From positions 1 to 41,760 of the forward strand of contig CANGTC010000015.1 of NCBI GenBank assembly GCA_947456505.1: a DNA stretch of 41,760 nt, in the 5' to 3' direction. The translations under genes and the position numbers were made by a program. Origin of the DNA: Beijerinckiaceae bacterium. Lineage in GTDB: Bacteria; Pseudomonadota; Alphaproteobacteria; Rhizobiales; Beijerinckiaceae. The notes under the pieces are model-generated. The model worked only from the letters and a program-made list of their open reading frames with translations. It did no database searches and was not told where the DNA came from. Within the stretch, counting starts at the first letter, position 1. The number at the start of each line of letters is the position of its first letter. This document shows positions 16,116 to 20,755 of the stretch, piece by piece.

Positions 16116-17737
16116 TCAGTCAAGGGGCTCAACCTTGATAATCGAAGCGCCGTGATTGTTCCCGATCCAAAGAGATGGCTTGGTCTGGCTATCATCCACA
16201 AAAATGCGCCGCACATTGGTGTAACGGGGGAGTTGATATTCGGTTGATTTGCCCGTTGCCGTGTCGAAGCGCACCACGCGATCCGCGTTCATTCCCGCTG
16301 TCCAAAGGTGACCGGTTTTATCGAGGGCCGCGTCGTAGGGCGCGAAAAACTTCCCGGGCACTTCCCATTCGATGAACTTCTCTGTCTTCGTGTCGAAAAG
16401 TCCTACGCGCCCCCGGTAAACTCAGCGAAAGCGATCCGGCCCTGGGCGTCAATCCTGCCGCGACGCGGGCGCGAACGTCTCGTCGGTGTCGGATAAAAGG
16501 TCGAAGCGCCGGTCGCCGCATCAATCTTTCCAATGTTTTCACCGCCAAAGTCGAGGTACCAAAGGTTGTTCTTCTCATCGGAGAAAATGCTGTATGGGCT
16601 ACCCAGCTTGTTGCCAAAAGGTTCGAAAAGTTCTGTCTTGCCGCTCGCCACCTCGATCCGATAAACGCCGCGCCGTGCGGGGTACTGCATCCACAATTTC
16701 CCATCCACATGACTGTTCTGCGGGCTCACCATGGCCTGCTGGGAATCAGCCTTGAGATAATCAGTGGGCAACCGCACCATTGAGAATTGTTCGGTCTTGC
16801 GGTCAAACTTTGCGGCCCCATGTTGGAACATGAGCCCGAGCCAGAGATTGCCGTCCTTATCCGGTTCAAGGTCCAGCGCGCCAGTGGGCCAGCCCTGGCG
16901 CTGCAATGGCACAGGATAGGACTTGTGCTGGAGCGTTTTAGTGTCGAGCTTGCCGAGTATCTGCCCGCTGAAATCCGTATGCCAGACGGTAGCTCCATCC
17001 TGATCAACGAAGACGTCATGAGGTTGTATCGTAGCTTCCGGCAGATCATATTCGGTGATGATCACCCTGGTGCTGTCACCGGTGAGGCGAGGCAAAGCTT
17101 TCAATTCCCATGTCCGCTCCCCCTCGCTGCGATTGATAGACGCGAAATAGGCTGCGACCTTGTCTGCATTTGGTACGAAGCGATTGATGTCGCGCACCTC
17201 CGCTCGGATCTGCGGCTTCTTGTAGAAGCTGTTATTGGAATATTGCGCCATGCGCTTGATTACTTCCAGCATCTCCTCAGCGTTATAGGCGGAAGCGACG
17301 ATGCGCTCGACGCTATGACAATTGGTGCAATTCGACAGACCCTTGCGTTGCTCATCTGAGCCAGGCGCGCTCATGATCCACTCGAGATTCGTGAGTTGCG
17401 AGGCCAGATTACGTGTTTTAACAAGCTTGAGTTCGATTGCGGTCAACCCATCCGCTGCAATCGAGACCGACTTGGGGCCCTCGAGGTTGTAGCCAATGGC
17501 GCGGGTTGAAAGGTTCCAGACGCCAGAATCAAGCCGCCCCGGTGGAAATGAAAACTCGCCCTTCGCATTGCTGACGACGCTCACAGTCAGGATACCCTTT
17601 TTTGCGCTGACGACCACTCCTTCCATGGTGGATTCAGTTGCCGATGAAACCTTGCCCGCAAGGATCGCCTGCTGGGCGATACACTGTGAGGCGGAGATGG
17701 CGAAGGCCGTAGTTAGAAGAAATGTTCTCACACGCAT
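16116..17737 (-). pseudogene. Exported haem c / beta-propeller (Vgb-like) protein, single-base frameshift
   Basis: The reading frame from ATG 17737 (GGGAGG six bases upstream) runs 444 codons to TAG at 16403-16405, but homology with the adjacent paralogue continues in another frame to 16116. The span is 1622 bases, one short of 541 codons, and adding one G to the five-G run (C16410-C16414 on +) restores the alignment. Order: signal peptide (~22 residues), carboxypeptidase-regulatory-like beta domain (GKVSSATESTMEGVVVSAKK), a CTNCH haem c site near residue 138, then propeller strands like the Vgb/streptogramin-lyase family (IITEYDLPEATIQPHDVFVD; NHGASIIKVEPLD at the end). Whether truncation is real or a sequencing slip cannot be told. 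Function likely overlaps its neighbour. Confidence 0.85.
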
Positions 17738-17793
17738 GATGACCTCCCTGGCTTCGCCCATATGCAGATTTTGCATTTACTTTTGCGCAAGTC

Positions 17794-19446
17794 TCAATCC
17801 AGAGGCTCCAGCTTAATAATGGACGCGCCGTGATTCGAGCCCGTCCAGAAAACCGGTCGTGGCCTGGTGTCATCCACCACAACCCTGCGCACATTGGTGG
17901 GTCTTGGCAGTTGATATTCAATGGTCTCGCCGGTTTTCTGGTTCACCCTCGTAACGCGATCCGTCGCCATGCCCGCGCTCCAGATATCCCCGCTCTTGTC
18001 GGTCACCAGATCGTAAGGAGCCGACCACGGCGAGGTCATGGACCACTCCTTGAACTCAAGAGTTTTTGTGTCGAACACAGCAACTTTGTTGCCGCGATAT
18101 TGCGCGAACCAGAAACGGTCCTGCTCATCCATACGACCACGTCGGTTACGCGATTTTTCTGTGGGCGCTGGATAGAATTTCGTTTCCCCGGTCTTCGCGT
18201 CGATGCGGCCTATGTAGTTGTTGCGGAACTCCGCCAACCATCCATTATTCTGACTATCGGGCGAAATTTGGTAGATTGCGTTTGCCGCAGGGCCGCCCGG
18301 AAGCAACTTCAAAGGCTGAAAAAGCTCATATTTACCTGTATTGATGTCGAGTCGGTAGACGTTCCCGGTGCCATCATTAGTGTTGGTCCAAACCTTACCA
18401 TCCACATGATGATTGATGGTGACCTGGTTCAACTGGATGTTCTCCTTGTTGAACTCCGGCGGCATTTCCCAAATCTTCCATTGGTCCGCCTTCGGGTCGT
18501 ACTGGCCAATGGCCCCCTGATTCATCATACCCACCAGTAATTTTCCATCAGGCTCCAATTCCAAATCAAGAGATCCGGTTGGGCGTCCGGGAACGGCGAG
18601 GGGTATGCGGATCTCCGTATGCTCAAGCGTCCTTGGATTGAATCTCCCGATCATCTGATCGCCAAAATCCGAATACCAGGCGACGCCTTCCTTATCGATC
18701 ACCACATCGTGGGGCTGGATCGTGCGACGCGGCAAATCATATTCAGTGATGATCACCTTCGTGCCGCGCCCGGACACGCGCGGCAGAGTCTTGAGGGGAT
18801 AGCTCCAAGTCTCCTGCGCACTGAGATTGAAACTGGCGATATAGTCCGCCATCTTGCGGAACTGTTCAGGATTGCTGGCCCGGTTCACCGGCCTCGTCTG
18901 CGGTTTCAACCAGAAACTCTCGGAGGCGTAATTCGCCATGCGCGTGAGCACCTGCGTGAAAGTGTCGGAATCATAGCTTGAGCGGAAGACACGCTCCAGC
19001 GTATGGCATGTCTGGCAATCAAGCAGAGCCGCCCGCATATCGTCAGGGCCCGGGACGCTCTGCATCCATTCCGAATTGGTGAGTTGCCCCGCGATGTTGC
19101 GGGTCTTCTTCAGGTTGATGTCCTGGACAGACCCGCTGGAAGCTATTTCGACGGTTCTGGCGCCGTCAAGTTCGTAGCCGGTAGCGCGTATGGACAGCGC
19201 ATATTTACCGGGTTCAAGCCGTCCTGCGGGAAATGCGAACCGTCCCTCGTCATCAGAGATGACCGATAGCGTGACGATCCCGCCTTCCTTCTTCGCACTG
19301 ACGACGACACCCTCCATAGCGCCTTCACCGGGCGCAGAGACTCGGCCCGAGAAGGGCGCCTGTTGAGCAAGTGCGCTTACGGCGAAGGTCAATCCCGCAA
19401 GGAATCCGCCGAAGGCTTGTGTTTTTGAGAATTGCCCCATGTGCAT
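17794..19446 (-). CDS. Exported protein: regulatory-like beta domain, haem c motif, Vgb-like beta-propeller
   Basis: The product is 550 residues. A signal peptide (to ~residue 27, SALAQ) precedes a carboxypeptidase-regulatory-like beta sandwich (GRVSAPGEGAMEGVVVSAKK; ~30-110). DCQTCHTLERVF near residue 143 is a single c-type haem attachment site. From ~215 onward, repeated units (VIITEYDLPRRTIQPHDVVI, GVAWYSDFGDQMIGRFNPRT, GRIDAKTGETKFYPAP) form a propeller like virginiamycin B lyase relatives. The combination suggests a periplasmic redox or carbohydrate/lactone-handling protein; the substrate is unknown. GGGAGG precedes ATGs at 19446 and 19440, the latter better spaced. It is a tandem paralogue of the frameshifted gene downstream (57 bases away) and sits 56 bases after the FMN oxidase, so the three probably form one operon. 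Confidence 0.85.
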   Translation of the reverse strand: MHMGQFSKTQAFGGFLAGLTFAVSALAQQAPFSGRVSAPGEGAMEGVVVSAKKEGGIVTLSVISDDEGRFAFPAGRLEPGKYALSIRATGYELDGARTVEIASSGSVQDINLKKTRNIAGQLTNSEWMQSVPGPDDMRAALLDCQTCHTLERVFRSSYDSDTFTQVLTRMANYASESFWLKPQTRPVNRASNPEQFRKMADYIASFNLSAQETWSYPLKTLPRVSGRGTKVIITEYDLPRRTIQPHDVVIDKEGVAWYSDFGDQMIGRFNPRTLEHTEIRIPLAVPGRPTGSLDLELEPDGKLLVGMMNQGAIGQYDPKADQWKIWEMPPEFNKENIQLNQVTINHHVDGKVWTNTNDGTGNVYRLDINTGKYELFQPLKLLPGGPAANAIYQISPDSQNNGWLAEFRNNYIGRIDAKTGETKFYPAPTEKSRNRRGRMDEQDRFWFAQYRGNKVAVFDTKTLEFKEWSMTSPWSAPYDLVTDKSGDIWSAGMATDRVTRVNQKTGETIEYQLPRPTNVRRVVVDDTRPRPVFWTGSNHGASIIKLEPLD

Positions 19447-19501
19447 TCGCCTCCCTGCGACGCATCGCCCGGTTAACCTGAACAGCTTCCGCCAGCGCAG
19501 T

Positions 19502-20755
19502 TCAGGCGCGCTTCACCATCGCAGGAACCAGATGTTTGATAGAGGGCGCGCCGGCCTGCTGCATCGCCGCATAAAGCTCAGTCCGCAAAAGTTCGAGGAC
19601 CCGCTCAACGCCCTCTTGGCCGAAAGCGCCGAGGCCCCACAAATAGGGGCGACCGATGGCGATTCCCGTGGCCCCCATGGCTAGCGCCTTCACGATATCC
19701 GTTCCGCGCCGAAATCCGCTGTCAATCAACACCGGCGTACGCCCGCCAACCGCCTCAATAACCTCAGGCAGTGTGTCGATGGTGGACCGCCCGGCTTCGT
19801 CCGAACGCCCACCATGGTTGGACACGATAATCGCGTCATAGCCATTGTCTGCAGCGATCTTTGCGTCTTCTGCTGTCAGGATTCCCTTGATCACGCATTT
19901 CATCTTCGTCGCATCACGAATGCGCTTGAGATAATCCCACGACATGGCGGACGATTGAAGGTTTTGCAGGCCGGACATGTCAATTCCGTCATACATGGGC
20001 CCGCCCAACCGGTTAGGCTTATGGCAATCGGAGCAAGTCCGGGGGTCGATGCGCCGAAGCCGCGCCAGCGTTTCCTGATTCCGGCCGCCGCTGCGGTCAA
20101 CCGTGACGGCGACGGCAGTGCAGCCTGCTTTTTCGGCGCGTTGAACCACCTGCCGCGCCACCTCGAATTTGTTGGTCGCATACAGTTGCATCCAGACCGG
20201 CGCACCTCGCGCCTTGATCACGTCTTCGACTAAGGTTGATGTTTGCGTGGACAGAATCATGCCATGATTGCCAGCCTTGGCGGCTTTCGCGACGGCGCCC
20301 TCCCCATCCGCATGATAGGCCCGGTGGCCGCCTGTGGGTGCGATCATAATGGGCGAGTTATATTTCTCCCCGAACAATTCCATGGTCATATCGACCTTGC
20401 TCACGTCCACGAGGCGGCGCGGACGCAACTGGAACTTGAGAAAACCCTCGCGATTGGCGCGCAAGGTCACTTCATCGTCGATCCCCGAGGCCATGTAGCC
20501 AAAATGACCTGGCGGCACATTTTCCTTCATCACGGGCTCGAAATCGAAGATATTTATCGCCTCTTTGGGCGAAGAAATCAGGTAATTCAGGTCACGGGGC
20601 GCCCACATCATCGGGTCTGGCAAACGATTTGGGGCCTCCAGCGCCTCGGCAAGGGGACCAGAGCCCGCAAACGCAACGGCGGAAGAACCCGCCAGCCATT
20701 GCAGGAAGCGTCGGCGGCTGGCCGCTGTTTGGACTTGTGCTATCGATGATGACAT
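19502..20755 (-). CDS. Tat-exported FMN alpha-hydroxy-acid oxidase/dehydrogenase with CxxCH
   Basis: The product is 417 residues. SRRRFLQWLAGSSAVAFAGS at residues ~13-32 is a twin-arginine signal, so the enzyme folds with FMN before export. The core is the glycolate oxidase/lactate dehydrogenase barrel: PIMIAPTGGHRAYHADGE, QLYATNK, AVAVTVDRSGGRNQE, VIKGILTAEDA (FMN lysine), IIVSNHGGRSDEAGRSTID (catalytic His and Arg) and DSGFRRGTDIVKALAMGA. The reaction is oxidation of an L-2-hydroxy acid to a 2-oxo acid. Unusually, the variable loop near residue 240 reads DPRTCSDCHKPNRLGG, a potential haem c site, suggesting electrons pass to a cytochrome rather than O2. GGGAGG precedes ATG 20755. Probably first gene of an operon with the two haem-propeller proteins. 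Confidence 0.9.
   Translation of the reverse strand: MSSSIAQVQTAASRRRFLQWLAGSSAVAFAGSGPLAEALEAPNRLPDPMMWAPRDLNYLISSPKEAINIFDFEPVMKENVPPGHFGYMASGIDDEVTLRANREGFLKFQLRPRRLVDVSKVDMTMELFGEKYNSPIMIAPTGGHRAYHADGEGAVAKAAKAGNHGMILSTQTSTLVEDVIKARGAPVWMQLYATNKFEVARQVVQRAEKAGCTAVAVTVDRSGGRNQETLARLRRIDPRTCSDCHKPNRLGGPMYDGIDMSGLQNLQSSAMSWDYLKRIRDATKMKCVIKGILTAEDAKIAADNGYDAIIVSNHGGRSDEAGRSTIDTLPEVIEAVGGRTPVLIDSGFRRGTDIVKALAMGATGIAIGRPYLWGLGAFGQEGVERVLELLRTELYAAMQQAGAPSIKHLVPAMVKRA

Follow-up and report, generated by a model that had tools for sequence, protein, structure and literature searches.

We analyzed a 41,760-nucleotide stretch of DNA from a Beijerinckiaceae bacterium (contig CANGTC010000015.1 of assembly GCA_947456505.1; hereafter designated as the window), in which the gene of a flavin mononucleotide (FMN)-dependent hydroxy-acid oxidase precedes two genes of propeller proteins on the same strand. 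The finding worth keeping is a subfamily of FMN alpha-hydroxy-acid dehydrogenases with apparent haem c in loop 4, and we regard the oxidase in the window, with good though not full confidence, as a periplasmic flavocytochrome c of this family that bears its haem in that loop. The original prediction, made from the DNA letters alone, had noted one CxxCH motif in each of the three proteins and read them as a periplasmic redox module. Its observation is largely right, and the reading as a module holds only locally.

The oxidase matched the Pfam family FMN_dh with 372.2 bits against a cut-off of 24.9 (residues 77-415). The best fold matches of its AlphaFold2 (AF2) model, of which the mean predicted local distance difference test (pLDDT) score was 84.3, were the glycolate oxidases 5zbm and 1gox in Foldseek (TMt of 0.90 for 1gox). 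Neither a match to Cyt-b5 (Pfam, E up to 1) nor a Pfam match to a cytochrome c domain was found in the oxidase, and its CxxCH falls inside the FMN_dh match. Among the residues taken to be catalytic, Tyr87 and Tyr192 are kept in 81 of the 82 members of the subfamily (defined below) and Asp220, Lys290, His314, and Arg317 in all of them. As these residues are kept, the subfamily should be catalytically active.

To sample the subfamily, one genome per species was scanned with two N-terminal peptide patterns, and 80 loci were returned. CxxCH was not selected for, because the patterns were N-terminal peptides. The motif was found in the main open frame of 74 of the 80 loci, namely 73 long genes carrying it at the aligned site and an oxidase remnant of 182 amino acids (L105:10017-10562), in which the middle is deleted and a CASCH loop is retained. 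The six loci without CxxCH (L094, L098, L099, L101, L103, and L104) reach a contig edge ahead of the loop. The original prediction had made its case depend on the conservation of the oxidase-loop motif in relatives, and every relative reaching the loop has it. We aligned 75 rows, comprising the window gene and 74 loci with open frames longer than 380 amino acids; one of them, L098, ends before the loop. These rows without L098, together with eight genes from other searches, constitute the 82 members, which contain two exact duplicate pairs (L032/L007 and L033/L008) and from which a fragment (L009, with CTQCH) and repeats of the window gene (L003, L006, and L126) were left out. The members can be represented by 43 sequences below 80% identity or 13 below 65%.

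According to the titles of their records, the members are spread over several bacterial phyla and belong to Alpha-, Beta-, and Deltaproteobacteria, Bryobacterales, Myxococcales, and others, and some are of named strains, i.e., Polynucleobacter kasalickyi, P. nymphae, P. finlandensis, and Bradyrhizobium sp. dw_411. Six loci (L052, L059, L062, L065, L066, and L067) are of metagenome bins titled Bordetella parapertussis, a title that we guess is probably wrong. The closest named oxidases, 94% and 90% identical to that of the window (L026 and L027, respectively), are of Beijerinckiaceae metagenome bins, and the identity drops to 43% among the long genes (L095). The motif is invariant among members down to approximately 40% pairwise identity, with 33 different pairs of inner residues, and the surrounding loop varies in both sequence and length (50 to 62 residues between fixed points). 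Since the motif of the oxidase and those of the propeller proteins are each invariant in their own family with free inner residues, the alignments indicate that each is more than chance. Tandem CxxCH oxidases with differing inner residues were found in L160:2854-5485 (CGDCH/CTACH) and L049:4807-7503 (CDQCH/CNACH).

The members are separable from other FMN dehydrogenases. A profile search against 398 Pseudomonadota genomes yielded six matches above 500 bits, including the window gene, and the next match scored 315. CxxCH was present in all six genes above 500 bits and absent from the loop of the 43 lower-scoring genes compared, which were those from loci 1-25 and 126-155 with scores of 60-500 bits, some from one genus and two identical to each other (L144/L145). 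Against these 43 non-members, the members grouped together as one clade with a FastTree support of 0.88, in a tree built without the alignment columns preceding residue 60 and without residue 84 and residues 226-268. In the AF2 model, the motif lies between barrel strand 4 (residues 214-218) and the helix before strand 5, namely in loop 4, and a short helix is predicted at residues 241-245, where the pLDDT of the block 241-250 is only 57. Loop 4 is mobile and contributes to catalysis (PMC10153336), and in lactate oxidase it closes the active site (PMC4908395).

We regarded a position as subfamily-specific when it was at least 95% conserved in the 82 members and at most 15% shared among the 43 non-members. 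There were 22 such positions, including Cys241, Cys244, His245, and His84, each found in all of the members. None of the non-members possesses the histidine at position 84, most of them having Phe, Val, Ala, Ile, or Thr there, and His84 is the only usual haem-iron ligand among the 22 besides the motif residues. Other specific positions are near His84 in sequence (Ile60, Pro63, Ala66, Val69, Phe70, Phe72, Glu73, Pro82, and Asp93) or adjoin CxxCH (Asp237 and Arg239). From this pattern, we infer that His245 would be one axial haem ligand, and His84 is possibly the other. In the model, His84 is within a predicted helix (residues 82-90), three residues or one helix turn before the active-site Tyr87. 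Tyr87 aligns with the first tyrosine in the DYYASG stretch of glycolate oxidase, which is Tyr24 in the numbering of that enzyme. PMC10153336 cites a paper whose title describes Tyr24 of glycolate oxidase as binding the substrate. In flavocytochrome b2, the equivalent tyrosine touches a haem propionate. By analogy, a haem ligated by both His84 and His245 would occupy roughly the place that the haem has in b2.

The twin arginine of the oxidase is shared by all of the members in the loose form RRx[FLMIV][LMIVF] and by 65 of the 82 in the strict form RRxF. We infer from this leader that the oxidase would leave the cytoplasm by the twin-arginine translocation (Tat) route. CcmE of the cytochrome c maturation (Ccm) system was present in the source genome and in all of the 14 further oxidase-bearing genomes tested. 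The Ccm system recognizes little beyond CXXCH, and 12-residue peptides receive haem (PMC3601427), and non-cytochrome shell proteins into which CXXCH was put received haem as well (PMC6962350). Archaeal split-Soret cytochromes c have been listed with predicted twin-arginine leaders (PMC4429474). A loop that is exposed may be open to the Ccm system even after the protein has folded.

Altogether, we propose the following mechanism. The oxidase would fold with FMN in the cytoplasm and be exported via the Tat route, as the invariant twin arginine suggests, and the Ccm system would then attach haem to Cys241 and Cys244 with His245 as the proximal ligand, as the invariance of CxxCH and the finding of CcmE suggest. 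A hydroxy acid would reduce FMN by the usual chemistry of the conserved His314 and Arg317, and electrons would move one at a time from FMN to the haem of the loop; His84 may fix this haem above the mouth of the active site. From the haem, the electrons would go on to a soluble cytochrome c. This would presumably be any available periplasmic cytochrome in most species and, in the lineage of the window, possibly the adjoining monohaem propeller cytochrome. The most specific form of this proposal, to which we give slightly less than an even chance, is that the barrel itself makes a haem c pocket without a cytochrome domain: the CxxCH of loop 4 would provide the proximal His245, and the tyrosine helix the distal His84, placing the haem beside FMN, and the Ccm system would act on an exposed loop of a folded, FMN-loaded, and Tat-exported protein.

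Several points weigh against the above proposal. All of the support for it comes from sequence and prediction. Tat substrates arrive folded. On the other hand, the substrates of the Ccm system are described as Sec-exported in the available parts of PMC3601427 and PMC6962350, and as delivered unfolded in the former. As CcmE was also detected in 5 of the 14 control genomes, E. coli and Caulobacter among them, we count its presence as weak support. The confidence of the model in loop 4 is low to moderate (69, 76, 57, 84, and 74 for the ten-residue blocks over residues 221-270). R225, aligned near a catalytic arginine, is replaced in 8 of the 82 members, and no cytochrome gene is regularly found beside the oxidase gene. 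With 22 subfamily-specific positions in all, His84 could serve substrate binding instead. A methionine may also be a haem ligand, as Met88 and Met285 are enriched in members (72 and 71 of the 82, respectively), neither being invariant.

We considered what else could have fixed these residues. Cys241, Cys244, His245, and His84 might bind zinc or another metal that clamps loop 4, with no haem at all; two cysteines and two histidines invariant together are a possible zinc set, and a Tat substrate could carry the metal out already folded. However, the strict C-x-x-C-H in all of the 74 loci reaching the loop, with the 33 pairs of inner residues, is the signature of haem c, and ligation of one zinc by an adjacent cysteine and histidine is unusual. 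The motif is also confined to the twin-arginine clade, and all of the 15 genomes tested carry CcmE. The argument from the clade is tempered by an apparently exported paralogue without CxxCH (L011), and altogether we find metal binding improbable. We give an even smaller chance to the idea that CxxCH is a thiol switch or a disulphide working the lid of the active site. Such a switch would suit a mobile loop (PMC10153336) and export to an oxidising compartment, yet it leaves the invariant His245 and His84 without explanation. The least credible alternative is an ordinary exported hydroxy-acid oxidase reducing oxygen, in which the motif is incidental: the residues for FMN chemistry are indeed those of glycolate oxidase, but an incidental motif would not stay invariant to approximately 40% identity within a loop that otherwise differs in length and sequence from member to member.

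The remaining alternative concerns the gene cluster, which may encode a dedicated relay from the oxidase haem to the haem of propeller 1 and then that of propeller 2. The genes are closely spaced on the same strand, and the pair of the oxidase and a propeller recurs at L026 and L027. Cys144, Cys147, His148, and Met170 of propeller 1 are invariant in the 26 aligned propeller rows, some of which are duplicates of one gene. FMN dehydrogenases outside the subfamily, which lack CxxCH and belong to the genus of the window, also adjoin propeller cytochromes at L170 and L174 (approximately 56 and 106 bases apart, respectively). Nevertheless, besides the window, the pair was found at only 2 of the 80 loci, around which at least 1.8 kb of flank was available downstream in 62 and upstream in 72, and propeller 2, which is frameshifted in the window, was found at neither of the two. 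When 11 oxidase-bearing genomes were tested (E of 0.001), a propeller match was clear in four, weak and to the propeller part only in one, and not obtained in six. Of the 43 propeller genes listed outside the window, some of them on short contigs, two adjoin an FMN dehydrogenase. We thus consider a dedicated relay unlikely, more so as a general three-gene module, which we rejected on the rarity of the pair and the six genomes with no propeller match. As for the original prediction, a haem-bearing oxidase is supported, the same gene order was not found elsewhere beyond the pair, and the relay is speculative and of local scope.

We also rejected the idea that a cytochrome gene regularly lies next to the oxidase gene. 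Only four same-strand open frames with CxxCH were listed near the oxidases of the 80 loci, namely the propeller of L026, one frame in L034, and an additional copy of the oxidase in each of L032 and L049; the propeller of L027 is just outside the limits of that list. The largest cluster of neighbours comprised 86 open frames resembling TctC/Bug receptors, found within approximately 7 kb at 36 of the 80 loci. We propose no substrate of the oxidase from these neighbours, because the label was given by eye from the starts of the sequences, some of the frames look like antisense shadows, and the background rate was not measured. In L170:159-3022, a CFQSCH propeller follows, after approximately 56 bases, an FMN dehydrogenase (identical with the gene of L011) that has a twin arginine but lacks CxxCH, and the haem of this propeller could be the first electron acceptor. 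Because an oxidase without CxxCH here adjoins a propeller with a haem motif, the arrangement suggests two wirings, with the haem either within the oxidase or in the neighbouring propeller.

The propeller proteins are credible as periplasmic monohaem cytochromes, the propeller of which may serve a partner or a ligand. Propeller 1 has a Sec-type leader (judged by eye) and matched CarboxypepD_reg (residues 33-111) and Vgb_lyase in Pfam. Propeller 2, 47% identical to propeller 1, also matched Vgb_lyase, and its match to CarboxypepD_reg (29.2 bits) was below the cut-off of 32.3. No cytochrome match was found in either protein (Pfam, E up to 1). The model of propeller 1, built on four sequences, comprises a beta domain (residues 32-114), a helical part (120-204) of low confidence (block pLDDT of 30 to 58 over 121-210), and a propeller (231-548). 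The pattern of invariant residues given above is that of a His/Met cytochrome, in which Met170 is likely the distal haem ligand. Identity with streptogramin lyase was not borne out, as propeller 1 scored 62.3 and 55.7 bits and propeller 2 scored 35.7 and 25 bits in the NCBIfam models of Vgb, of which the cut-off is 600. Of the 41 genomes searched, 15 had relatives of propeller 1; most of these relatives are in the genus of the window, where copies are often many. No description of propeller cytochromes was found in the open-access literature by title or abstract start among the matches listed.

A branch of the propellers bears CFQSCH, with three residues between the cysteines (L156:8651-10258, L170:1436-3022, L176, L177, L178, L179, L181, L183, and L188), and the spacing is normal in relatives of this branch (CFACH in L180 and CFGCH in L182). 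CFQSCH is possibly a variant haem c motif. In the source genome, a span of approximately 10 kb (L156:4227-14468; G000:C8) has four genes for propeller cytochromes and one for a small CTICH protein. In L158:2567-10137, a distant CSGCH propeller is in a row with, judged by sequence starts, an apparent twin-arginine molybdenum hydroxylase, a quinoprotein, and a small cytochrome.

The features of the locus are listed in Table 1. The source assembly, a draft, totals 4.39 Mb over 325 contigs, with a completeness of 88% and a contamination of 6%. The three motifs named in the original prediction are real, and so is the twin-arginine start of the oxidase (ASRRRFLQ). The gaps, put at approximately 56 bases, are 55 bases between the oxidase and propeller 1, and 17 or 59 bases between the two propellers depending on which ATG starts the second gene (17776 or 17734). 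GGGAGG, resembling a ribosome-binding site, precedes each of the three genes, and we took 17734 as the likely start of propeller 2 because of the position of this site. The claim of a beta domain with a Vgb-like propeller in both tandem proteins stands on the Pfam matches, apart from the sub-threshold CarboxypepD_reg of propeller 2. The reading as three intact proteins was dropped: the frame of propeller 2 ends at 16403, with its final 95 or so residues running on in another frame to 16116. The stretch at 16119-16460, which contains two in-frame stops, matched propeller 1 (residues 435-550) at 54%. Either an assembly error or a real frameshift would fit this break. Around the three genes are those of a TctC receptor, a branched-chain-type ATP-binding cassette (ABC) transporter, a molybdenum hydroxylase large subunit, and proteins resembling flavin adenine dinucleotide (FAD)-binding monooxygenases. 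At positions 1178-2185 of the window, a Rad52/22-family protein with a match to DUF968 is found amid otherwise catabolic genes, and mobile DNA is perhaps nearby.

Table 1. Positions in the window of the oxidase gene, the two propeller genes, and their putative haem-related and export elements.
Feature	Positions	Strand	Basis
FMN_dh oxidase, 417 amino acids	19502-20755	minus	Pfam FMN_dh, E 3.3e-111
Twin-arginine pair R14-R15 of the oxidase export signal	20711-20716	minus	RRx[FLMIV][LMIVF] in 82/82 members
Codon of oxidase His84, candidate distal haem ligand	20504-20506	minus	82/82 members, 0/43 non-members
CSDCH of the oxidase, residues 241-245, proposed haem c attachment site in loop 4	20021-20035	minus	
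Propeller cytochrome 1 (putative), 550 amino acids	17794-19446	minus	CarboxypepD_reg, helical CxxCH domain, Vgb-like propeller
CQTCH of propeller 1, residues 144-148	19003-19017	minus	
Propeller cytochrome 2 (putative), first part	16403-17776 (likely true start 17734)	minus	Frame broken at 16403
CTNCH of propeller 2	17315-17329	minus	Direct sequence reading
C-terminal remainder of propeller 2, different reading frame	16116-16402	minus	Three-frame translation

If the oxidase is a flavocytochrome c as we propose, the removal of electrons from FMN has been solved in a further way besides oxygen, quinone, and haem b in an added domain, namely by haem c in loop 4. The reading of the subfamily genes, which we would expect to be labelled as plain hydroxy-acid oxidases, would change. 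As a naturally occurring miniature flavocytochrome, such a protein would lend itself to direct electron transfer to electrodes, and it would put to the test the action of the Ccm system on a folded Tat substrate, which is unforeseen in the available parts of PMC3601427 and PMC6962350. As some of the members are of named strains, the question can be settled at the bench.

Among the known systems, Vgb resembles the propeller pair in the propeller fold (2z2n; Foldseek TMt of 0.88 to the model of propeller 1), and the pair differs from Vgb by two further domains, namely CarboxypepD_reg and one bearing CxxCH. (S)-mandelate dehydrogenase (EC 1.1.99.31) is, like the oxidase, an FMN_dh enzyme, and its structure 6bfg, titled as a monotopic membrane protein, was among the fold matches. 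This enzyme is not known to have CxxCH or a leader, and its loop 4 binds the membrane. Loop 4 would thus differ in role between the two, being the proposed haem holder in the present oxidase and a membrane anchor in (S)-mandelate dehydrogenase. A lengthened loop 4 is described as a mark of the latter, which passes electrons to quinone (PMC8491902). Glycolate oxidase and lactate oxidase share with the present oxidase the catalytic residues and provide the closest solved folds (5zbm and 1gox). Their acceptor is oxygen (PMC8491902), and they have no CxxCH in the aligned loop and a residue other than histidine at the position of His84 in the chains compared.

The acceptors known for FMN alpha-hydroxy-acid dehydrogenases are oxygen, cytochrome c via flavocytochrome b2, and quinone (PMC8491902), and no description of a haem c form was found in the open-access literature by title or abstract start among the matches listed. 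Flavocytochrome b2 (EC 1.1.2.3) shares the FMN_dh fold and chemistry with the present oxidase, the profile of which (A2) matched 1fcb with an E of 3e-80. In b2, a built-in haem stands between FMN and an external cytochrome c (PMC6472588 and PMC8491902), and the present oxidase would work in the same manner. The b2 enzyme is located in the mitochondrial intermembrane space of yeast (PMC6472588), whereas the present oxidase is a twin-arginine-tagged bacterial protein. Finally, the haem of b2 is a haem b housed in a cytochrome-b5-like domain of its own, in contrast to the present oxidase, which has no such domain and is proposed to bind haem c covalently in loop 4.

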